Part shown: in pieces, positions 4,076 through 45,883 of the stretch | How positions within the stretch are numbered: the stretch's first letter is position 1 | How the letters are laid out: every line of letters starts with the position of its first letter | Origin: Mycolicibacter virginiensis | GTDB lineage: Bacteria > Actinomycetota > Actinomycetes > Mycobacteriales > Mycobacteriaceae | Length of the DNA: 64,000 nucleotides | Assembly: GCF_022374935.2 (NCBI RefSeq) | Contig: NZ_CP092430.2 | Location: forward strand, 2,046,001 to 2,110,000 | Reading direction: 5' to 3' | Program-made: the position numbers and the translations under genes | Notes under the pieces: generated by a model | Seen by the model: the letters and a program-made list of their open reading frames with translations, nothing else | Databases searched by the model: none | Told to the model about the DNA's origin: nothing

Positions 4076-5381
4076 TGTGATCCGTCAGGACATCCCGGAC
4101 TGATGTCTCAAGACATCCCGGACAGTTCAGTGGGTGTCGAAAGCGCGCCTGGTCATCACTGCCGTGGTCCTGGAAGGCCGTCCCGCAGCGGAGGTCTGTG
4201 CCCGGTACGGCATCTCGAAGTCGTGGCTCTATGAGCTGCTGGCTCGCTACCGCGACGAAGGCGAGGCCGCGTTCGAACCGCGTTCCCGACGCCCACACAC
4301 CTGCCCCACGGCGATACCGCCGGACACCATCGAGCTGATCGTGCGCCTGCGTAAGGAACTGACCCAAGCAGGCCTAGACGCCGGGCCGGCAACCCTGGTC
4401 TGGCACCTCAAACACCACCATCAGATCCGCGTATCGACGGCGACGGTCGCCCGGATCCTGACCCGCGAAGGCCTCATCACGCCCGCCCCGAAAAAGCGCC
4501 CGAAGGCCTCCTACATCCGCTTCGAAGCCGAAATGCCCAACCAAACCTGGCAATCAGACTTCACCCACTATCGCCTCACCGACGGCACCGACGTCGAAAT
4601 CCTCACCTGGCTCGACGACCACTCCCGCTACGCCCTGCACTGCAGCACCCACACCCGCATCACCGCCCAAATCGTCCTAGCCACCTTCCGCCAAACCGCC
4701 TGCGAACACGGCCATCCCGCCTCAACACTGACCGACAACGGCATGGTCTACACCGTTCGATTCGCCAGCGGACGCGGCGGCCGTACTGCACTCGAAGCCG
4801 AACTCGCCCGCCTGCACATCCAGCAGAAAAACTCCCGACCCAACCACCCCACCACCTGCGGCAAGGTCGAACGATTCCAGCAGACCCTCAAAAAATGGCT
4901 ACGCAGCCAACCCAACCAGCCACACAACGTCACCGAACTACAAACCCTCATCGACCACTTCGTCGACGAATACAACAACCGACGCCCCCACAGCTCACTG
5001 CCACACCGCGCAACACCAGCAGCGACCTACCACGCCCGCCCCAAAGCCATCCCCACCGTCGAACACCACCACGACAACCACCACCGCCTACGACACGACC
5101 GCATCGACAAACACGGCAAACTCACCCTGCGCGTCAACGCCAAAACTGCACCACATCGGCATGGGCCGAACCCTCGCCCAAACCCCCGTCACCCTGCTCA
5201 TCAGCGACCTCGACGTCCGCATCCTCGACGCCACCACCGGCGAACTACTCCGAGAACTCACCTCGACCCCACCCGCGACTACCAACCAACAGGCAATGAC
5301 CGCCACGCACGATGGCGCCAAAAACAAAAACAGACCGAACCATAAGGGTTCGGCCTGTCCGGGATCTCCCGAGAGATCACA
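4076..5381 (+). mobile_element. Complete IS481-family element next to attL
   Basis: The left inverted repeat begins TGTGATCCGTCAGGACATCC at 4076. The right inverted repeat (5357-5381, read in reverse) begins TGTGATCTCTCGGGAGATCC; the two agree at about 21 of 25 positions. Length is 1306 bp. No clean short target duplication abuts the ends. Both flanks instead carry GTCCGAGGGGG-like sequence: 4057-4075 on the left and the att core at 5384-5403 on the right. Confidence 0.85.
4134..5345 (+). CDS. IS481-family transposase (DDE)
   Basis: A 403-residue transposase starting at GTG 4134. Its N-terminal HTH covers about residues 5-55 (VCARYGISKSWLYELLARYR). The catalytic triad is visible as NQTWQSDFTHY (Asp), TLTDNGMVY (Asp) and TCGKVERFQQT (Glu). 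The last ~90 residues are rich in His, Pro and Arg and are an extension beyond the normal end of the domain, shared by the truncated sister copy. The element is apparently intact and could be active. Confidence 0.92.
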   Translation: MSKARLVITAVVLEGRPAAEVCARYGISKSWLYELLARYRDEGEAAFEPRSRRPHTCPTAIPPDTIELIVRLRKELTQAGLDAGPATLVWHLKHHHQIRVSTATVARILTREGLITPAPKKRPKASYIRFEAEMPNQTWQSDFTHYRLTDGTDVEILTWLDDHSRYALHCSTHTRITAQIVLATFRQTACEHGHPASTLTDNGMVYTVRFASGRGGRTALEAELARLHIQQKNSRPNHPTTCGKVERFQQTLKKWLRSQPNQPHNVTELQTLIDHFVDEYNNRRPHSSLPHRATPAATYHARPKAIPTVEHHHDNHHRLRHDRIDKHGKLTLRVNAKTAPHRHGPNPRPNPRHPAHQRPRRPHPRRHHRRTTPRTHLDPTRDYQPTGNDRHARWRQKQKQTEP

Positions 5382-5383
5382 AC

Positions 5384-5403
5384 CGTGTCCGAGGGGGGAC
5401 TTG
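5384..5403. other. attL candidate (20-bp core)
   Basis: CGTGTCCGAGGGGGGACTTG is identical to 45796-45815. The identity stops at 5383 and 5404. It duplicates the acceptor 3' strand and T-stem 3' strand of the tRNA-Leu gene, as expected for the distal att site of an element integrated at a tRNA 3' end. It lies 3 bp to the right of the end of the IS481-family element. Confidence 0.8.
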
Positions 5404-5494
5404 GCCACTTACGACACGGGTTCTGACCTGGCGAATCGGTACCTGATCGTCATCCATGCCGGGGTCGACCCACCTCTGACGTCGAGCGGTCGGA

Positions 5495-5929
5495 TTAGCG
5501 GTCGAGTTGGGCGGGGGCGAGTCGGCACCCGGCGGCTTGGGCTCCGGCGTGCAGGCGTCGGTCCCAAACGGCGACGATCAGGCCGGGGTCGCCGACTGCC
5601 AACGCGCTGGCCAGATGGACAGCGTCGGCTCCGCGCAAGGCATGGGCGCGGGCGAGGCGGCCGGCGTGCTGTTCAATTGTCGCGGTGAGTTCGACTGGGC
5701 GGGTGGCGGCCCAGAAGTCCTCCCAGTCACGCTCGGCAGCGGCGAGCTCGGATTCAGTTAGGTCGTGATTGCGGGCTGCTGCAGCGAGTGCGGCGCGGAC
5801 TTCGGGGTAGGCCAGACGGCTGGACAATGCGGCGTCGCAGCCGTCCCATAGCGCGGACGCCAGCGAGCTCCCTGTCTCGGTGGTGAGAAGTTTGACGAAG
5901 GCGCTGGCGTCGAAGTAGACGAGCGGCAC
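5495..5929 (-). CDS. vapC: VapC-type PIN-domain toxin
   Basis: A 144-residue PIN-domain protein. The acidic residues expected for Mg-dependent RNase activity are present: Asp7 (LVYFDASAFVK), Glu43 (YPEVRAAL), Asp102 (GADAVHLASAL) and Asp123 (VWDRRLH). It is the downstream partner of an antitoxin gene, separated by 3 bp. VapC toxins cleave tRNA or rRNA when released from VapB. The specific RNA target cannot be predicted. Its place about 90 bp inside attL suggests a role in stabilising the integrated element. Confidence 0.88.
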   Translation of the reverse strand: MPLVYFDASAFVKLLTTETGSSLASALWDGCDAALSSRLAYPEVRAALAAAARNHDLTESELAAAERDWEDFWAATRPVELTATIEQHAGRLARAHALRGADAVHLASALAVGDPGLIVAVWDRRLHAGAQAAGCRLAPAQLDR

Positions 5930-5932
5930 CGG

Positions 5933-6193
5933 TCAGCGCCGCTGGTCGCTGACCTGGTCAGACACCGGCCGCCGCGGCCTGGGCCGGGACCGTCCCGCAG
6001 CGACGGGCCGCTGCGCGGTGGCCCTGCCAATCACGCCTTCGGCCGTGAGACGCTCCAAGGTGCCTGCGCTGTCCAGCGCAGCGAGTCGCGCGACCGGAAT
6101 CCCGCGGTCGGTGATGACGACCTCACCACCAGCCCGAACTCGATCGAGCCAATCGCTAAGGTGCGCGCGCAACTCGGTCACGGATACCTCCAC
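5933..6193 (-). CDS. vapB: VapB/Phd-YefM-type antitoxin
   Basis: The GTG at 6193 gives 86 residues beginning VEVSVTELRAHLSDWLDRV, the Phd/YefM N-terminal fold that binds DNA. GEVVITDRGIPVARL follows, and then a basic, disordered tail that would contact the PIN toxin. Upstream starts in the same frame at up to 6280 would add residues not typical of the family. It is the first gene of the vapBC operon and likely autoregulates from the TGTACA repeats upstream. Confidence 0.8.
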   Translation of the reverse strand: MEVSVTELRAHLSDWLDRVRAGGEVVITDRGIPVARLAALDSAGTLERLTAEGVIGRATAQRPVAAGRSRPRPRRPVSDQVSDQRR

Positions 6194-6202
6194 ACCGTGA
6201 AC

Positions 6203-6231
6203 TGTACACTCGCTGAACCGTGATTTGTACA
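6203..6231 (-). promoter_or_regulatory. Two TGTACA half-sites upstream of vapBC
   Basis: The palindrome TGTACA occurs at 6203-6208 and 6226-6231, with starts 23 bp apart, just upstream of the antitoxin start. Phd/YefM antitoxins bind short palindromes in their own promoters, so these are candidate operators. This rests on sequence pattern only. Confidence 0.45.
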
Positions 6232-6280
6232 TGTCACTCCTGAGTGTGGCAACGACGACCTGAGAGATTGACCTGCGCAA

Positions 6281-17232: not shown

Positions 17233-18861
17233 ATGAGGAGCACGATGCAGGACGTTGCGTTGACTGTGCCCGCGATCGTGGCCCATGCTTCGGCAGTTCA
17301 TGGCGATCGCGAGGTGCTGACTGCGCGCGGACCCCGGCAGATCTCTGGGGTGTCCTATCGCGAGGTGGGTGAGCGTGCGGCACGGTTGGCAAATGCTCTG
17401 CGCCAGATCGGCATCCGTGGAGATGAGCGTGTCGCGACGTTACAGTGGAGCAACCAGGAGCATCTGGACTGTTACGCGGCGGTGCCGTCGATGGGCGCGG
17501 TGCTGCATACGTTGAACCTGCGGCTGCCGCCGGAACAGCTGACGTGGATCGCCAATCATGCCGAGGATCGGGTGATCATCGTCGACAGTACGGTGCTGGC
17601 CCTTTTGGCGGCGGCGTTGCCGTCGATGACCTCGGTGCGCACGGTGCTAGTGACCGGAACCGGCGATCTTGCCGCGGTCGAGGGGTGCGGAAAGGACGTC
17701 CTACGGTACGACGATGTGGTGGCCGCCCAGTCGAGTACGTTCGACTGGCCCGACGTCGACGAGCAGTCGGCCGCAGCGATGTGCTATACGAGCGGTACCA
17801 CCGGGCATCCGAAAGGTGTTGTCTACAGCCATCGTTCGACGTGGTTGCACTCGCAGGCGGCGTGCACTTCGAATGCCTTGGGCATCGGTCATGACGACAC
17901 GGTGTTGGCGATCGTTCCGATGTTCCACGCCAACGCGTGGGGGTTGCCGTATGCGGCGATGATGGCCGGCGCGCAGCTTCTGCTGCCTGACCGTTTCCTG
18001 CAGGCGGGGCCTCTAGTGGAGATGATCGAGGCGGTGCGACCGACGATGGCGGGGGCGGTGCCGACGATCTGGACCGATGTTCTGCACTACCTGCGCGACA
18101 ATCCCGGCCATGACGTGAGTTCGCTGAAGATGGTGGCCTGCGGTGGTTCGGCGGTTCCGCGGTCGTTGATGACCGCCTATGACGAGCTGGGCATCCGCAT
18201 TGTGCAGGCTTGGGGGATGACTGAGACTTCCCCGCTGGCCTCGGTCGCTCTGCCGCGGAGTTCTGATACCCCGGAGAGGTCGCTTCACCTGCGCGCAACC
18301 CAGGGCCGGGTGGTGGCCGGTGTGCAGGCCCGCATCGTCGATGACAGCGGTGCAGAACAACCGTGGGACGGAAAATCGGTGGGGGAGATTCAAGTCCGCG
18401 GCCCGTGGATCACTCAGTCGTATTACGAGAATGACAGTCCGGCGGCGTCGCCGGACGGGTGGTTGCGTACCGGGGACGTCGGGACGATCAGCGCGGACGC
18501 GTTCATCGCGCTGACCGACCGCTCCAAGGATGTCATCAAGTCCGGGGGCGAATGGATCTCCTCGGTGGAATTGGAGAACGAGTTGGCCGCTCACCCTGCG
18601 GTGCGCACCGCCACGGTGATTGGAGTGCCCGACGACAAGTGGCAGGAACGGCCGCTGGCGGTGGTCGTCCTGGCTGCCGACCGCACCGCCACCGCGGCGG
18701 AGCTGACCGAATTTCTGCGTGCGCGGGTGGCCAAGTGGTGGCTACCGGAACGGTGGGCGTTCGTCACCGACATTCCGCTGACTTCCACTGGCAAGTTCGA
18801 CAAGAAGAAGCTGCGCCGCCAGTTCGGCGACGGTGACCTCATCATCGAGACGCTGGCGTGA
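17233..18861 (+). CDS. Medium-chain fatty acyl-CoA synthetase (AlkK/FadD-like)
   Basis: A 542-residue AMP-forming enzyme. Motif A3 is [11 protein letters not shown] (about 186-196), motif A5 [10 protein letters not shown] (about 325), A7 GWLRTGDV and A8 [16 protein letters not shown]; the A10 lysine is in [11 protein letters not shown]. It activates carboxylic acids as acyl-AMP then acyl-CoA. In this block it would activate the fatty acid made by oxidation of CYP153 products. It is a close paralogue of the synthetase at 34726-36351; both open with the same MQDV-LT--AIV-HA pattern. Confidence 0.9.
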
Positions 18862-34725: not shown

Positions 34726-36351
34726 ATGCACAGCACGATGCAAGACGTCCAGCTCACAATCTCGGCAATTGTCCGCCATGCCGCCTCCATTCACGGAAAC
34801 AGCGAGGTGATCACCCCCGACGGAACTGGATGCCGAAGTATGTCCTACCGTAGCGTCCTGGGGCGAGCGGGCCGACTTGCCAATGCGTTGCGCGGGCTGG
34901 GAATAACGGCAGATCAACGGGTGGCCACTTTTCAGTGGAGTAACCAAGAGCATCTCGAGGCCTACTGCGCGGTTCCCTCCATGGGCGCGGTGCTGCACAC
35001 CCTCAACATTCGTTTGGCTCCAGAGCAACTCGCGTACATCGCCAACCATGCCAGCGATCAGATCATCCTGGTGGATGCGTCGGTTGCGCCATTGTTGGCT
35101 AGTGCGCTACCAGCGATGGAGTCGGTGCATACGGTCATCGCCACCGGGGGCGGCGACCTCGCTCCGCTGCAGCGATGCGGGAAGACGGTGTTGCGTTACG
35201 AGGAGATCCTGGCGCAGCAACCGGAGACTTTCGATTGGCCCGAGATCGATGAGCGTTCCGCCGCGGCCATGTGCTACACCAGCGGGACTACTGGAAATCC
35301 CAAAGGTGTTGTCTACAGCCACCGTTCGACCTACCTACATGCACTGACCGCCTGCACGTCGAACGCCCTGGCAGTGAGCGAGGCCGACCGTATCCTGGCC
35401 ATTGTCCCGATGTTTCACGCCAATGCGTGGGGACTGATCTACGCGGCGTTGATGTCTGGTGCGGACTTGGTATTACCCGATCGCCATCTGCAGGCCGCGC
35501 CGCTGGTGTCGATCATCGAAGAGACTCAGCCGACTATCGCCGGTGCAGTGCCGACGATCTGGAACGATGTCGATCGATACCTGGAATCGAATCCCGCCCG
35601 GGATATCTCCTCACTTCGGCTGGTTGCCTGCGGGGGATCGGCAGTCCCCGTCTCGCTGATGCGGGCATTCGAAGACAAGTACAACGTGCCTATCGTGCAG
35701 GCATGGGGCATGACCGAAACCTCGCCGCTGGCTACCGTCGCACGCGCAGCGCACGGAGTAGGCGAGACCCGTGCGTGGGAGATGCGCGAAAGCCAGGGTC
35801 GGCCGATGTGCGGTGTCGAGATCCGGTTGCGTGACGACCATAAGAAGACCGTGCCGTGGGACGGTCGATCAGTGGGTGAAATACAGGCGCGGGGCCCGTG
35901 GATCACCGGCGCCTACTTCGGCGAAAATGATCCGGACAAGTTCGACGGAGGGTGGCTGCGCACCGGCGACGTCGGCCGGATCGACCCAGACGGGTATCTC
36001 ACGCTGACCGATCGTGCGAAGGACGTCATCAAGTCAGGTGGAGAATGGATCTCCTCAGTCGAGCTGGAAAACACGCTGATTGGTCACCCGGCGATCTACG
36101 AGGCTGCGGTGGTGGCAGTTCCCGACGACAAATGGCAGGAAAGACCGCTCGCCCTGGTCGTGGTTCACCGTGGAGCCGAGGTCGACATCGACCGACTGCG
36201 CGCGTTTCTGTTGGACAAGGTCGCCAAGTGGTGGATCCCGGAGCGGTGGAGCTTCGTGTCTGAGATTCCCCGAACAAGCGTCGGAAAATACGACAAGAAG
36301 GCCATACGCGCGCGTCACTCCGCCGGCGAGTATCAGATCGAAACGTCCTAA
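34726..36351 (+). CDS. Fatty acyl-CoA synthetase (AlkK/FadD-like), second copy
   Basis: A 541-residue AMP-forming enzyme. It has YTSGTTGNPKG (about 184-194), [43 protein letters not shown] and a C-terminal TSVGKYDKKA with the catalytic Lys. It is closely similar over its whole length to the synthetase at 17233-18861, including the N-terminus and the [16 protein letters not shown] region. It probably activates the acid produced after esterase cleavage of the BVMO product. Confidence 0.9.
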   Translation: MHSTMQDVQLTISAIVRHAASIHGNSEVITPDGTGCRSMSYRSVLGRAGRLANALRGLGITADQRVATFQWSNQEHLEAYCAVPSMGAVLHTLNIRLAPEQLAYIANHASDQIILVDASVAPLLASALPAMESVHTVIATGGGDLAPLQRCGKTVLRYEEILAQQPETFDWPEIDERSAAAMCYTSGTTGNPKGVVYSHRSTYLHALTACTSNALAVSEADRILAIVPMFHANAWGLIYAALMSGADLVLPDRHLQAAPLVSIIEETQPTIAGAVPTIWNDVDRYLESNPARDISSLRLVACGGSAVPVSLMRAFEDKYNVPIVQAWGMTETSPLATVARAAHGVGETRAWEMRESQGRPMCGVEIRLRDDHKKTVPWDGRSVGEIQARGPWITGAYFGENDPDKFDGGWLRTGDVGRIDPDGYLTLTDRAKDVIKSGGEWISSVELENTLIGHPAIYEAAVVAVPDDKWQERPLALVVVHRGAEVDIDRLRAFLLDKVAKWWIPERWSFVSEIPRTSVGKYDKKAIRARHSAGEYQIETS

Positions 36352-41023: not shown

Positions 41024-42457
41024 ATGGCATCAAACTACAAAAACAGCAAGAACTCTCAATCCAACGACGACGACTGGATCACCGACCTCATCCTCTCACT
41101 GTTCAAAGCGGCCGGGTATCTGCTGTGGTGGGCGGTCCTGTTCCCGGCCATCAGCATCCCGATCATCGCCAGCGTGGCGATGGCCATTACCCATGGCTCA
41201 CGCGCGGGTCTGATCATCGGTATTGCTTTCGCTGCCGCGTATGCGGGCTGGGCGTGGCTGGACCCGCGATCGTTTCACGGATGGGTCACCGAGCCGGTGC
41301 GGCGGCGCTGGTTGACCTGGTCGCGCTACACCCGCACCTGGCAATCGGTGTGCACCCTGCACGGCCTGACCGCCACACTTGGCGAACGCACCTTGGTGCC
41401 GACCTTGCAGTCGGTGCGCATCGGCAAGACGACCGACGTCCTGGCGCTGCGAGTGGTCACCGGCCACTCCCTGGCTGATTGGCACAAGCAATCCGAGGCG
41501 CTAGCCGCCGCCTGGCGTGCCGACCGGATCGCCATCCGCGCGACCGCGCCCGGAGAGCTACGCATCACCCTGATGCGCGGCGACGTGCTGGCCGACCCGA
41601 TTGCCCTGCCCATGCCCACGACGGCGACTGCGGTGGATGTGGGGTCGCTGCGGGTCGGGATCACCGAAACCCGCCACTGGTGGCACCTACCTCTGCTTGG
41701 CCACCACCTGCTCGTGGCTGGCGCGACCGGCGCGGGGAAAGGTTCAGTGTTGTGGTCACTGATCGCTGGCCTCGCCCCCGCCGTGAAAACCGGACAAGTG
41801 CGGCTCTGCGTCATCGACCCGAAAGGCGGCATGGAACTGGGCGCCGGAGCACCCATGTTCACGGTGTTCACCCACGACGCCACTGGCACCACCCTGTACC
41901 TGCTGCGGCAACTAGTGGAGGTGATGCACGCCCGCGCCAATCGGTTACGGGGCAAGACGCGCATGCACACCCCGACTCCGACTGAGCCGTTATTCGTGGT
42001 GGTGATCGATGAGATCGCCGCGCTGACTGCGTATGTGACCGACCGCAAGGTGCGCAGCGAAATTGAACAGCTGTTGGGCCTGCTGCTCTCCCAAGGCCGG
42101 GCCGTCGGCATTTCGGTGGTGGCAGCGGTGCAAGATCCGGCCAAAGACACCCTGCCGATGCGGCAGCTGTTTACCGTGCGAATCGGGTTGCGGTTGACCG
42201 AAGCCACCCAAACCACCATGGTTTTGGGCCAGGGCGCCCGCGACGCGGGGGCCGACTGCGATCACATCCCCGACACCACTCCCGGTGTGGGCTACATGAT
42301 GATCGATGGCACGGCCCAACCGGTGCGGGTACGGGCATTTCACGTCGCCGACCACGACATCGCCACTCTGGCAGCACGATTCCGGCCACCTCGTGCCGCG
42401 ACCCGAACCAACCAGTCCAACAGCGGGCGCACCGACACCGCCCGGGGTCAACGGTGA
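41024..42457 (+). CDS. FtsK/SpoIIIE-type DNA translocase (TraB/TraSA-like)
   Basis: A 477-residue membrane ATPase. Two hydrophobic segments occupy about residues 22-70, then a cytoplasmic motor domain. Walker A is VAGATGAGKGSVLW (about 230-243) and Walker B FVVVIDEIAAL (about 323-333). In AICEs this single protein moves double-stranded DNA between mycelial or cell compartments, so no relaxase or type IV secretion system is needed, and none is seen. Its stop overlaps the Rep start by 4 bp. Confidence 0.92.
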   Translation: MASNYKNSKNSQSNDDDWITDLILSLFKAAGYLLWWAVLFPAISIPIIASVAMAITHGSRAGLIIGIAFAAAYAGWAWLDPRSFHGWVTEPVRRRWLTWSRYTRTWQSVCTLHGLTATLGERTLVPTLQSVRIGKTTDVLALRVVTGHSLADWHKQSEALAAAWRADRIAIRATAPGELRITLMRGDVLADPIALPMPTTATAVDVGSLRVGITETRHWWHLPLLGHHLLVAGATGAGKGSVLWSLIAGLAPAVKTGQVRLCVIDPKGGMELGAGAPMFTVFTHDATGTTLYLLRQLVEVMHARANRLRGKTRMHTPTPTEPLFVVVIDEIAALTAYVTDRKVRSEIEQLLGLLLSQGRAVGISVVAAVQDPAKDTLPMRQLFTVRIGLRLTEATQTTMVLGQGARDAGADCDHIPDTTPGVGYMMIDGTAQPVRVRAFHVADHDIATLAARFRPPRAATRTNQSNSGRTDTARGQR

Positions 42458-43983
42458 CTACTGCAACGACAGCCCCCACGCTGGTGTTGCCCGGGGTTCC
42501 CGGCTCGATCGACACCAATGCGGTGGTGGATCAGATGGTGCGCCGCGCGTCCTCGACGGGGTTCGAATCGTGGTGGCGGCGCGCGGAATCTGTTGGCTTC
42601 TGCGCCCACCCCATCCAACTCAGAGGTACCGACGAGATAGGCCGCGATCGGGTGGTGTGGACACGGTGCAACAACCGCCGCGCACAGGTATGCCCATCGT
42701 GCTCAGACCTGTACGCCCGCGACACGTGGCAGCTCGTGCACGCTGGCACCGCCGGCGGCCACCACAACATCCCCGCAGCAGTGGCCGATCGTCCGCAGGT
42801 GTTCGTCACCCTCACCGCACCTAGCTACGGGCCTGTTCACGCCGCCGCGCGTGCAGGCGACAAGAAGCAGCGTGTGTGTCGCGACCACCACCACACTGGC
42901 GGCTACCGCCGATGCCCGCATGGGAAACCACTGTGGTGCAGCACAACCCACGGCGAAGGTGATATCTATGCGGGACAGCCGATCTGCGCGGACTGCTACG
43001 ACTACACCGGGCATGTCCTGTTCACATGGCACCTGCCCGAACTGTGGCGACGCTTCACCATCACCCTGCGACGCACACTGCGCCGAGAGCTACGTGCTTC
43101 GGGCGCCGACCCGGATGCGGTGCAGGTCAGCTTCATCAAAGTCGTCGAACTGCAAGCCCGGCTCATCCCGCACATTCATGCCCTGATCCGCCTCGACCCG
43201 CCCGACAGCGATGACTCTGGCGGTCATGACTGGCATGCGCCCCTTGCGGCAACCGAACTGGCCACCATCATCCAACAGGCCGTTCGAACCGTGGCCGTGA
43301 CGGTCACCGACTCATCCTCAAATACAGCGACACGCTCATCCTCAAATACAGCGACACGGGTGATCAGGTTCGGCACACAAGTCGACACCCAACCCATCGA
43401 CAACCGGCACGCCGGCACGGACGGCTCTGCTGTGCAGGAGGATTCACCACACGGCGGGGTTCTTCCAGGCCGCCGCGTAGCTCGCTACCTCGCGAAATAC
43501 GTCACCAAATCCTTAGCTGACGTCGGGATCAGCGCGCGACGCATCTCCACCGAGGCCATCGCTGACCTCGATGTCTGCGACCACGTTCGGGCGATCCTGA
43601 CCGCCATCAGCCAACTCGCCGATAAGGGACTGGCCGGTGTCGGTCGGTGGCTGCACACCCTGGGCTACCGGGGCCACATCACCAGCAAATCCCGCCGCTA
43701 TTCCACCACGATGACCGCGCTGCGCGAACGTCGCGCGGCCTGGACCCGTGAACAACGTTTAAAAAGCACTGCGCACCAACATGATCTCGGCCTCGACTCC
43801 ACCGATGGCGATGATCTGGTGGCATGGGAATTCGATCGTGCCGGCCCCACCAGCCTCGGCGACCGGACCCTCATCTACTCCGCGGCCGTCCAACACATCC
43901 ACACCCGCCGCATCGGACTGATCGAAGTCCGTGGCCAAGCCCGCAATCAACAATGGGATCCGCCAGGGGGAAGCGATGGCTGA
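42454..43983 (+). CDS. RepSA-type rolling-circle replication initiator
   Basis: A 509-residue protein with Cys-rich zinc-binding segments near residue 75 (CNNRRAQVCPSC) and 150-190. The metal-binding HUH-like motif is IPHIHALIRLD (about 239-249), and the catalytic Tyr is probably in ARYLAKYVTKS (about 344-354). It would nick the element's origin and allow replication of the excised circle. An in-frame tandem octapeptide (SSSNTATR twice) sits in a linker at about 287-302. It is coupled to the translocase gene upstream and overlaps the small gene downstream. Confidence 0.9.
   Translation: MTTATTAPTLVLPGVPGSIDTNAVVDQMVRRASSTGFESWWRRAESVGFCAHPIQLRGTDEIGRDRVVWTRCNNRRAQVCPSCSDLYARDTWQLVHAGTAGGHHNIPAAVADRPQVFVTLTAPSYGPVHAAARAGDKKQRVCRDHHHTGGYRRCPHGKPLWCSTTHGEGDIYAGQPICADCYDYTGHVLFTWHLPELWRRFTITLRRTLRRELRASGADPDAVQVSFIKVVELQARLIPHIHALIRLDPPDSDDSGGHDWHAPLAATELATIIQQAVRTVAVTVTDSSSNTATRSSSNTATRVIRFGTQVDTQPIDNRHAGTDGSAVQEDSPHGGVLPGRRVARYLAKYVTKSLADVGISARRISTEAIADLDVCDHVRAILTAISQLADKGLAGVGRWLHTLGYRGHITSKSRRYSTTMTALRERRAAWTREQRLKSTAHQHDLGLDSTDGDDLVAWEFDRAGPTSLGDRTLIYSAAVQHIHTRRIGLIEVRGQARNQQWDPPGGSDG
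43311..43358 (+). repeat. In-frame tandem 24-bp repeat in the Rep gene
   Basis: Two perfect copies of a 24-bp unit (43311-43334 and 43335-43358), beginning CTCATCCTCAAATACAGCGA, encode SSSNTATR twice. The low-complexity linker lies between the HUH motif and the tyrosine region, and copy number could vary between strains. Confidence 0.85.
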
Positions 43984-44173
43984 CAGGTCCCGAGCAGCAC
44001 GTGCTCGCTCCGGGTGTGACGCTCGTCCCGATGCGCCGACGGTGTCAGAGGGGGGTGTTGAAATTGTTGTGCCCAACCAATATCGACTTCCGTCCGAGGC
44101 CAACCGCGCGCTGGTACACGTGATAATGGCTGTGCGGGACCGGATGCTTGGATCAGGGAGGGGAGTGGCGTGA
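43976..44173 (+). CDS. Small protein coupled to the serine recombinase (possible directionality factor)
   Basis: A 65-residue basic protein from ATG 43976. It overlaps the end of rep by 8 bp, and its TGA overlaps the GTG of the recombinase (GTGA at 44170-44173). A C-terminal helix-like segment reads YRLPSEANRALVHVIMAVRDRML. No family is recognised. Its place, directly before and coupled to the recombinase, is where excision factors or recombinase helpers are often encoded. Function is inferred from position only. Confidence 0.65.
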   Translation: MADRSRAARARSGCDARPDAPTVSEGGVEIVVPNQYRLPSEANRALVHVIMAVRDRMLGSGRGVA

Positions 44174-45816
44174 GCCTGAGGTTCGCCTTCTATGGCCGAG
44201 TGAGCACGGAGGACGCTCAAGACCCGGAGGCGAGCCGCAGCTGGCAGAAGCGGCGTGCCATGGACCTGATCACTCCGCACGGCGGATTCATCGCCGCCGA
44301 CTACTTCGATGTGGGACAGAGCCGTTCACTGCCGTGGAAGCGCAGGCCAGAGGCGTCACGTCTGCTTGCTGATGTCGCTTGTCGGGACCGTAGCTTTGAT
44401 GCCGTAGTGATTGGGGAACCCGCCCGTGCGTTCTACGGGCCGCAGTTCGCGCTCACCTTCCCTGTCCTCACGCACTACGGAGTTGGCCTGTGGGTACCCG
44501 AGGTCGGCGGAGCGGTCGATCCCGGCTCCGAGGCACACGACCTGGTGATGACTCTGTTCGGCGGCATGAGCAAGGGAGAGCGCGCTCGAATCCAGATGCG
44601 CGTCCGTACGGCGATGTCAGCACTCGCGCACGACACCGCCAGATATCTCGGTGGTCGACCACCCTACGGTTACCGGCTCGTCGATGCCGGCCCGCATCCA
44701 AACCCTGCCAAGGCCAATCTTGGGCAGCGGCTTCACCGCCTCGAACCCGACCCCGCGACATCTTCGGTCGTCGAGCGGATCTACCGCATGTACGCCGACG
44801 GAGCGGGCCTGCGCTATATCGCGCAACGGCTCACCGACGATGGTGTACCGTCACCGAGCCAGTACGACCCGGCACGGAATCGGCATCGTGACCCACGAGG
44901 ATGGTCCCATTCGGCGATCCGCGCGATACTCGACAACCCGGCGTACCGCGGTATCCGTGTTTGGGGCAAGCAGGAGAAATACGAGGTTCTGGTCAACCCC
45001 GATGATGTCGCTGCGGGGTATGAGACTCGTATGCGGTGGCGTGATGAGGCCGACTGGATCGCACCAGAACGCCGCACGCATGAAGCGCTGATCCGTGACG
45101 AACTAGCGCAGGCTGTTCGTCTTCGGATGCAGGCGCGGCGGGGTCCCGGTCTTGTTTGCAGCAGAGAGTCAACAGTGCCATATGCACTGCGTGGGCTGCT
45201 GTTCTGTGCCGCATGTGGACGGCGGATGCAGGGCGCTGCCCGCGCCGGGAAGCGAACAACACGCATCCTCTACCGTTGTGAGCTCGGTAAGTCGCGTTCG
45301 GTACCCGCGGACCTGAGTGATCACCCGCGCACCGTCTACCTCCGTGAAGATGAGGTGACTGCGCGACTTGACGAATGGATCGCCACCCTGGCCGATCCGG
45401 CCGACTTGGCACGCGGGCAAGACGCGGACCCGGTAGCAGGGGCTGGCTACGCGGCCTTGCGGCGCCAGCTCAGCGAGGCGAATGCGAAGGTTGCTGCTCT
45501 GGTTACCGCCGTGGAGTCTGGTGTGGCCGTTGAGGATTTGACTGTTGCATTGCGCCGCCGCACCGCCGAGCGCGACGAGCTGAAGGTCCGTCTTGAGCAA
45601 GCGGAGCGACCTCGCGTCATGACTGCCGCACAAATCAGCGAGTTGGTTGAGGAATTGGGCGGGCTGTCAGCAGTGCTTGGTGAGGCAACCGGGGCGGAAC
45701 GCGCTCAGGTATACGCAAGCCTGGGCCTGCGCCTCGACTACGACCCGCATCTTCAGCGAGTCACGGCGACTGCCGACTTAAGTCGTGTCGCCGGACGTGT
45801 CCGAGGGGGGACTTGA
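44170..45816 (+). CDS. Large serine recombinase (element integrase)
   Basis: A 548-residue large serine integrase. The resolvase catalytic domain starts FAFYGRVSTEDAQ with Ser12 as nucleophile and ends with the MSKGERARIQMRVRTAM helix. The Recombinase domain follows (GGRPPYGYR; RAILDNPAYRG), then a zinc-ribbon (LLFCAACGRRM ... YRCELGK) and a coiled-coil stretch (about 435-495). The final codons R-V-R-G-G-T-stop lie in the att core and the tRNA 3' end. After excision the frame would run on into left-end DNA and stop at 5444-5446, adding 14 residues. Confidence 0.93.
   Translation: MSLRFAFYGRVSTEDAQDPEASRSWQKRRAMDLITPHGGFIAADYFDVGQSRSLPWKRRPEASRLLADVACRDRSFDAVVIGEPARAFYGPQFALTFPVLTHYGVGLWVPEVGGAVDPGSEAHDLVMTLFGGMSKGERARIQMRVRTAMSALAHDTARYLGGRPPYGYRLVDAGPHPNPAKANLGQRLHRLEPDPATSSVVERIYRMYADGAGLRYIAQRLTDDGVPSPSQYDPARNRHRDPRGWSHSAIRAILDNPAYRGIRVWGKQEKYEVLVNPDDVAAGYETRMRWRDEADWIAPERRTHEALIRDELAQAVRLRMQARRGPGLVCSRESTVPYALRGLLFCAACGRRMQGAARAGKRTTRILYRCELGKSRSVPADLSDHPRTVYLREDEVTARLDEWIATLADPADLARGQDADPVAGAGYAALRRQLSEANAKVAALVTAVESGVAVEDLTVALRRRTAERDELKVRLEQAERPRVMTAAQISELVEELGGLSAVLGEATGAERAQVYASLGLRLDYDPHLQRVTATADLSRVAGRVRGGT
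45796..45815. other. attR candidate (20-bp core, overlapping tRNA-Leu and integrase 3' ends)
   Basis: This is the second copy of CGTGTCCGAGGGGGGACTTG. It covers the last codons of the recombinase gene and, on the other strand, the acceptor 3' strand, T-stem 3' strand and part of the T-loop of tRNA-Leu. The element supplies the sequence to its left; the full tRNA is on the chromosomal side. Confidence 0.8.
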
Positions 45817-45883
45817 ACCCCCACGCCCGTTAATAGGGCACTAGCACCTCAAGCTAGCGCGTCTGCCATTCCGCCACTCGGAC
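45798..45883 (-). tRNA. tRNA-Leu (anticodon GAG)
   Basis: Read on the minus strand the 86-nt gene has acceptor stem GTCCGAG/CTCGGAC plus discriminator A, anticodon stem CTAGC/GCTAG around loop TTGAGGT (anticodon GAG), a long class II variable arm (TGCCC...GGGCG) and T-arm GGGGG-TTCAAGT-CCCCC. No CCA is encoded. It is the integration target of the 40-kb element and is fully restored by the right att copy. Confidence 0.97.

Follow-up and report, generated by a model that had tools for sequence, protein, structure and literature searches.

The choice that a serine integrase makes between integration and excision is central for phages, mobile elements, and genome tools, and the established answer to how its direction is set is a separate directionality factor. 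What, then, should be made of an integrase gene that runs through its own att site, so that integration is predicted to change its last codons? We examined such a gene in a 64-kb stretch (64,000 nucleotides, here called the window) of the genome of Mycolicibacter virginiensis, a single contig of 4.98 Mb. A mobile element of 40.4 kb spans positions 5384 to 45815 of the window. It is inserted at the 3′ end of a tRNA-Leu(GAG) gene, where it is bounded by two copies of a 20-bp core, and its right end is the gene of a large serine recombinase. Judged by its predicted genes, which include a RepSA protein, an FtsK-type ATPase, and a serine recombinase, it belongs to the actinomycete integrative and conjugative elements (AICEs) of mycobacteria. 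The features that shape the end of the recombinase gene are as follows.

44170 to 45816, plus strand: serine recombinase gene, integrated form, GTG start, 548 codons and TGA, ending RVRGGT in the tRNA
45796 to 45815, plus strand: right 20-bp att core (attR), made up of recombinase codons 543 to 548 and the TG of the next codon
5384 to 5403, plus strand: left 20-bp att core (attL)
45814 to 45816, plus strand: TGA stop codon of the integrated form
5402 to 5446, plus strand: circle-only tail of 14 codons, WPLTTRVLTWRIGT, and TGA, in the recombinase frame when 45795, the core, and 5404 are joined
5444 to 5446, plus strand: TGA stop codon of the circular form
45797 to 45883, minus strand: tRNA-Leu(gag), the integration target, whose T-arm provides the stop codon of the integrated form (ARAGORN)

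The window contains the core, CGTGTCCGAGGGGGGACTTG, at the two positions listed and nowhere else. A sequence-only reading of this locus had claimed that the core begins at recombinase codon 543, and codon 543 does start at 45796. Its claim that the integrated frame ends in RVRGGT, with a TGA inside the tRNA gene, was confirmed from the sequence and from ARAGORN, whose placement of tRNA-Leu(gag) on the minus strand puts that stop codon in the T-arm. Joining the core to the DNA from 5404 onward also gave the tail and the stop codon that had been read there. The circle is thereby predicted to encode a recombinase of 562 residues and the integrated copy one of 548, integration moving the last 14 codons 40 kb away. 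The proposed C-terminal switch, in which 14 residues would be lost on integration, follows from the sequence and is conserved in relatives.

The integrated end was compared at 51 related loci. At 41 of them the same recombinase end was followed by tRNA-Leu sequence, a recurrence that argues against coincidence, and at two the tail stood directly after the recombinase. At three more (L003, L005, and L035) the core was followed only by the T-arm of the tRNA before unrelated sequence began, as if another element, one with a longer core, lay between this element and the tRNA. The pattern missed the remaining five, which comprised two contig ends, one distant relative, one insertion, and one short match. 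Among the 120 homologues listed, 100 ended in V-x-x-G-T/A, 83 of these having 545 to 549 residues and 45 ending in exactly VRGGT; the other 20 were fragments or had other ends. Relatives in other families, 44 to 57% identical to P0051, enter the same tRNA-Leu in all three frames, and the distant relatives L060 to L066 and L139 to L161 have three different tRNA-coded C termini, one per frame. At about 1513 to 1700 in L071 there is a recombinase remnant whose core diverges from the tRNA sequence and whose short tail, VRGGVWNHDIGDR, is a different one. Plasmid records gave one match above 60% identity, an 85%-identical recombinase on M. aubagnense pJCM15296 (L132, 8001 to 9622) that is annotated as separate pieces. 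Phage records gave no match to the recombinase above 60% identity, and a scan of viral contigs returned neither the core-plus-arm pattern nor the window's own circular junction.

The tail sequences of relatives were taken from left arms, the DNA that follows the left core. The search pattern was the core with any base except A after it, which excludes an intact tRNA and makes no selection for an open frame; arms that have lost the core escape it. Two scans found a left arm in 26 of 30 and 19 of 28 genomes, in samples mostly picked for holding a relative and with a few genomes present under two handles. When CGACACG was added to the pattern, 76 of 396 genomes of the window's genus matched, the reversed control gave 0 matches, and all places found in this larger scan were matched by hand to arms in the collected set. 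Among 32 genomes of more distant relatives, 1 had the long core with a non-A base after it. The 110 arms read, repeats included, amounted to 87 distinct flank-plus-arm sequences and 50 distinct 45-base arms. Identical right-hand arm sequences adjoined different left flanks, and because the arms are alike to the right of the core and the flanks unlike to its left, we placed the left boundary of the element at the core. The base preceding GTGTCCGAGG varies among hosts, and the part common to the arms is therefore 19 bp.

Large serine integrases use an attP of about 50 bp with inverted arms. Here, tail codons 4 to 6 overlap a putative inverted repeat of the attP site, the arms of which lie on either side of the core.

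45784 to 45790, plus strand: CGTGTCG, left arm of the 7-bp attP inverted repeat, inside recombinase codons 539 to 541 (hand count)
5412 to 5418, plus strand: CGACACG, right arm of the attP inverted repeat, tail codons 4 to 6

The outer ends of this repeat lie 23 bp from its center by hand count; it was not the top-ranked repeat in a scan that allowed arms as long as 28 bp. CGACACG was present in all 19 distinct arms among the 48 that came from the two scans not selecting for it. In LI integrase, the contacts with each attP half-site extend over 25 bp (PMC3783163). Given the conserved CGACACG and the 25-bp LI half-site, tail codons 1 to 6 are therefore accounted for by DNA binding. Tail codon 7 begins about 25 bp from the repeat center, which would leave codons 7 to 14 at or past the edge of the DNA-bound site, an edge that is itself uncertain.

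The overlap might then be no more than a compact way to store attP within the final part of the integrase gene; the arm would be conserved as DNA, and the tail would be a by-product that is tolerated and has no function. The need of attP arms for DNA conservation, seen in CGACACG, favors this explanation, as does the entry of distant relatives into the same tRNA in three frames, with different ends. Conservation, however, reaches to about the stop codon of the tail and not past it. Mean column identity, computed on 43 thinned arms after 7 near-duplicates had been dropped, was 0.85 over codons 2 to 6 (the attP arm), 0.63 over codons 7 to 13, 0.35 at codon 14, and 0.72 at codon 15 (the usual stop), and then 0.31 and 0.29. 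Storage of DNA alone sits poorly with this conserved stop codon between the variable codons 14 and 16. It sits poorly, too, with codons 1 to 13 that are never interrupted and with three hydrophobic columns that are fixed. Codons 1 to 13 held 0 stops in the 50 arms, and in the other two frames codons 7 to 12 held 33 and 30. Codons 7, 10, and 12 were hydrophobic in 50 of 50 arms, and at codon 12 the second base was invariant, with a first-base identity of 0.27. On this evidence we regard the explanation from DNA alone as possible, at clearly less than an even chance.

The tail was 14 residues long in 42 of the 50 distinct arms, 15 in 4, 13 in 1, 16 in 1, 23 in 1, and at least 50 in 1, the two longest being those of L215 and L217. 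Another way to read these lengths is that selection asks only for the frame of the circle to stop cleanly and soon, which would avoid read-through far into left-end DNA and leave the peptide without a role. The conservation of the stop codon among variable codons fits this idea, and so does the weakness of the amino-acid signal. A clean stop could nevertheless stand anywhere in codons 1 to 13, yet no arm has one there, and the fixed hydrophobic positions 7, 10, and 12 also speak against it; we consider it unlikely.

The sequence-only reading had likened the locus to mycobacteriophages with att sites inside the repressor gene, and phage BPs gives that comparison a concrete form. The attP site of BPs is also embedded in a reading frame, and on integration the encoded protein loses 33 C-terminal residues that bear an ssrA-like tag (PMC4557955). 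By analogy, the tail could be a degradation signal that makes the circle-encoded integrase short-lived, as the long BPs repressor is. The likeness in layout held, and it is the argument for such a signal. The BPs gene, unlike this one, encodes a repressor and not a recombinase, and the degradation tag of its lost segment (PMC4557955) was not seen in the 50 tails here, whose termini are not conserved as judged by eye, no search for a tag consensus having been made. The tails end in GT, GR, SR, GP, RL, SH, TC, and others, and their conserved part is internal. A degradation signal is accordingly the least probable of the explanations that we weighed, and a very improbable one.

We then compared the arms with neutral expectation in a simulation run along the arms' own tree. 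Runs free of premature stops made up 2.8% of the total, runs with 42 or more kept stops 0.5%, and runs with both 0.1%; three hydrophobic columns arose in 0 of 1,000 runs. In a codon test on the 50 arms, codons 7 to 13 gave an omega of 0.64 (p = 0.035), and the other frames gave 0.85 (p = 0.59) and 1.27 (p = 0.4).

Several points weigh against a tail that is translated and selected. The omega of 0.64 is only weakly below neutral, and an earlier codon test on 18 arms (codons 7 to 14, with the 15-residue arm left out) gave 0.87, which was not significant (p = 0.65); values not far from 1 are also what the arm conserved only as DNA would give. The simulation drew both its tree and its rates from the same 42 bases, and at half the substitution rate its result was weaker, with an open frame in 14.5% of runs, the stop in 13.4%, both in 1.2%, and the three hydrophobic columns in 0.1%. 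Tail length differed from 14 in 8 of the 50 arms. In phiC31 integrase the last 21 residues, which lie past the same strand, are reportedly non-essential (PMC5737554), a tolerance that again suits a functionless by-product. No tail of the circle-only type was present in any of the 120 homologues listed. Recombinase codons do run directly into a tail, the equivalent of the predicted join, at nine other loci (L031, L049, L115, L178, L181, L188, L191, L201, and L224), but the recombinase frame was broken at 9 of 9, with 17 to 131 open codons before codon 543, and no intact 562-codon gene was seen among these nine chromosomal junctions or the 120 homologues listed. The nine loci look like remnants within tandem arrays. 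An intact long form might conceivably be unstable when chromosomal.

Taken in sum, the tests give moderate support, not proof, to a tail that is a translated and selected peptide. Because the tail is preserved as a brief reading frame that closes with a stop codon of its own and in which three hydrophobic positions are fixed, the 562-residue form is most likely a real product, and the retention of the circle-only tail in relatives suggests that the tail does something. We give about an even chance to the fuller reading, in which the integrase gene of this AICE ends in its own attP, the tail is under selection, the 562-residue form serves integration, and the 548-residue form serves the integrated state.

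How might 14 residues matter to such an enzyme? The recombinase has the Pfam domains Resolvase, Recombinase, and Zn_ribbon_recom, the domain set of a large serine integrase. The structure that AlphaFold predicts for the 548-residue form (mean predicted local distance difference test score [pLDDT], 77.6) has helices at residues 421 to 449 and 454 to 477 and strands at 520 to 525 and 530 to 535, that is, the coiled coil followed by a final β-hairpin that large serine integrases have, as far as a predicted structure can tell. Residues 539 to 548, after the final hairpin, were predicted with a pLDDT below 50. In the Protein Data Bank, a search with the single sequence found no match, and one with a profile gave the SPbeta integrase YokA as the best match. 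AlphaFold placed a strand over tail residues 5 to 11 in one natural fused fragment, at a low confidence (block pLDDT, 55 to 65; predicted template-modeling score, 0.46) that counts against leaning on it.

In LI integrase the last β-hairpin follows the coiled coil and extends the zinc-ribbon sheet (PMC3783163), and the extreme C terminus lies near the coiled coil (PMC5737554). Fusion of a directionality factor to the C terminus of phiC31 or Bxb1 integrase alters direction (PMC5737554). The tail of the 562-residue form could, by this comparison, add a strand to the last β-sheet of the zinc-ribbon domain, beside the coiled coil that governs the pairing of att sites. A recipient of the circle would make only the 562-residue form, which would then be the form tuned for attP × attB integration, and the integrated copy would make only the 548-residue form, which would carry out excision, probably with a directionality factor. 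The 548-residue form is unlikely to be simply inactive, because excision starts from the integrated copy, which encodes that form only. The same recombinase is present in several species, so integrated copies can presumably leave, which would have the 548-residue form support excision and the 562-residue form integration. The effect proposed in the sequence-only reading, that the switch favors integration from the circle and restrains activity once the element is integrated, may hold. We put forward only tentatively the most specific version, a self-resetting direction switch at one DNA site, kept by selection, in which the structure of the recombinase would register where the element resides: the β-strand tail of the circle sets integration and integration deletes the tail, leaving a form set for excision; it seems to us doubtful as a whole.

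Parts of this arrangement have been described before. The tRNA-Leu gene used here is also the target of eight related serine recombinases from Mycobacterium (Ghinet et al. 2011, PMC3218068); by that description, those mycobacterial AICEs share the element type and the target with ours. The main text of that paper has no word beginning with "overlap" or "C-term," and its accessible passages do not describe a gene that runs through the att site or two C termini. In the ssrA islands of Dehalococcoides, the 540-residue serine recombinase DsiB is encoded by a gene that shares sequence with the att site, which lies at an RNA gene, and the authors who described DsiB suggested in 2011 that it is perhaps fully functional only when encoded by the circle (PMC3146451). 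The likeness is one of layout, a recombinase frame that crosses the att site and enters an RNA gene. DsiB tails diverge in length and sequence (PMC3146451), whereas those studied here mostly have 14 residues and fixed hydrophobic positions. Archaeal suicidal (SSV-type) integrases also carry the att site in the integrase gene and have a product altered by integration, but they are tyrosine recombinases that are split in two (PMC8371274), whereas here a serine recombinase would lose only its last 14 codons. An att overlap with the idea of a circle-only function (DsiB) and a product changed by integration (suicidal integrases and BPs) were thus already known. No serine integrase with a conserved tail encoded only by the circle was found in the literature searched, from which subscription papers were mostly out of reach; what appears to be new here, as read from sequence, is the circle-only tail as a family trait of related elements.

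The rest of the element fits its assignment as an AICE. It is inserted site specifically in a tRNA gene and flanked by direct repeats, its replication initiator is of the RepSA/RepAM/Prim-pol type (PF20199, E = 8.9e-125), and it encodes an FtsK-like ATPase (PF01580, E = 2e-15) with a putative role in transfer. An AICE is also expected to excise to a circle and to transfer by conjugation; relatives contain junction-type sequences, but these are possibly tandem remnants. Copies with a best segment 100% identical to this recombinase are present in six named genomes from the genera Mycobacterium, Mycolicibacterium, and Mycolicibacter (L002 to L007). The genes just upstream of the recombinase are as follows.

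41024 to 42457, plus strand: FtsK/SpoIIIE-type DNA translocase, probable transfer protein (PF01580)
42454 to 43983, plus strand: RepSA replication initiator (PF20199)
43931 to 44173, plus strand: open reading frame of 80 codons that shares GTGA with the start of the recombinase gene; its start codon may be the ATG at 43976

The 80-codon frame was open in 15 of 16 relatives inspected, and the one stop, in L020, lies upstream of the possible ATG. Pfam gave no match for it, and by position it is a candidate directionality factor or regulator.

Between 13934 and 37539 the window holds catabolic cargo, including P450s, flavin monooxygenases, acyl-CoA ligases, and an acyl-CoA dehydrogenase; the acyl-CoA ligases at 17233 to 18861 and 34726 to 36351 have exact 16-base stretches in common. 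At the left end (5495 to 6280, minus strand) a PIN-domain protein lies beside a small open reading frame in a toxin-antitoxin-like arrangement, the antitoxin being assigned by layout. Immediately outside the left end is an IS481-like transposase (4134 to 5345), with a near-identical flank in Mycolicibacter arupensis (L085).

For annotation, the finding carries a warning that recorded sequences of the integrase represent its integrated form. If the tail matters, the two natural forms would make a matched pair for testing, and part of the control of direction in these elements would sit in the att site itself.
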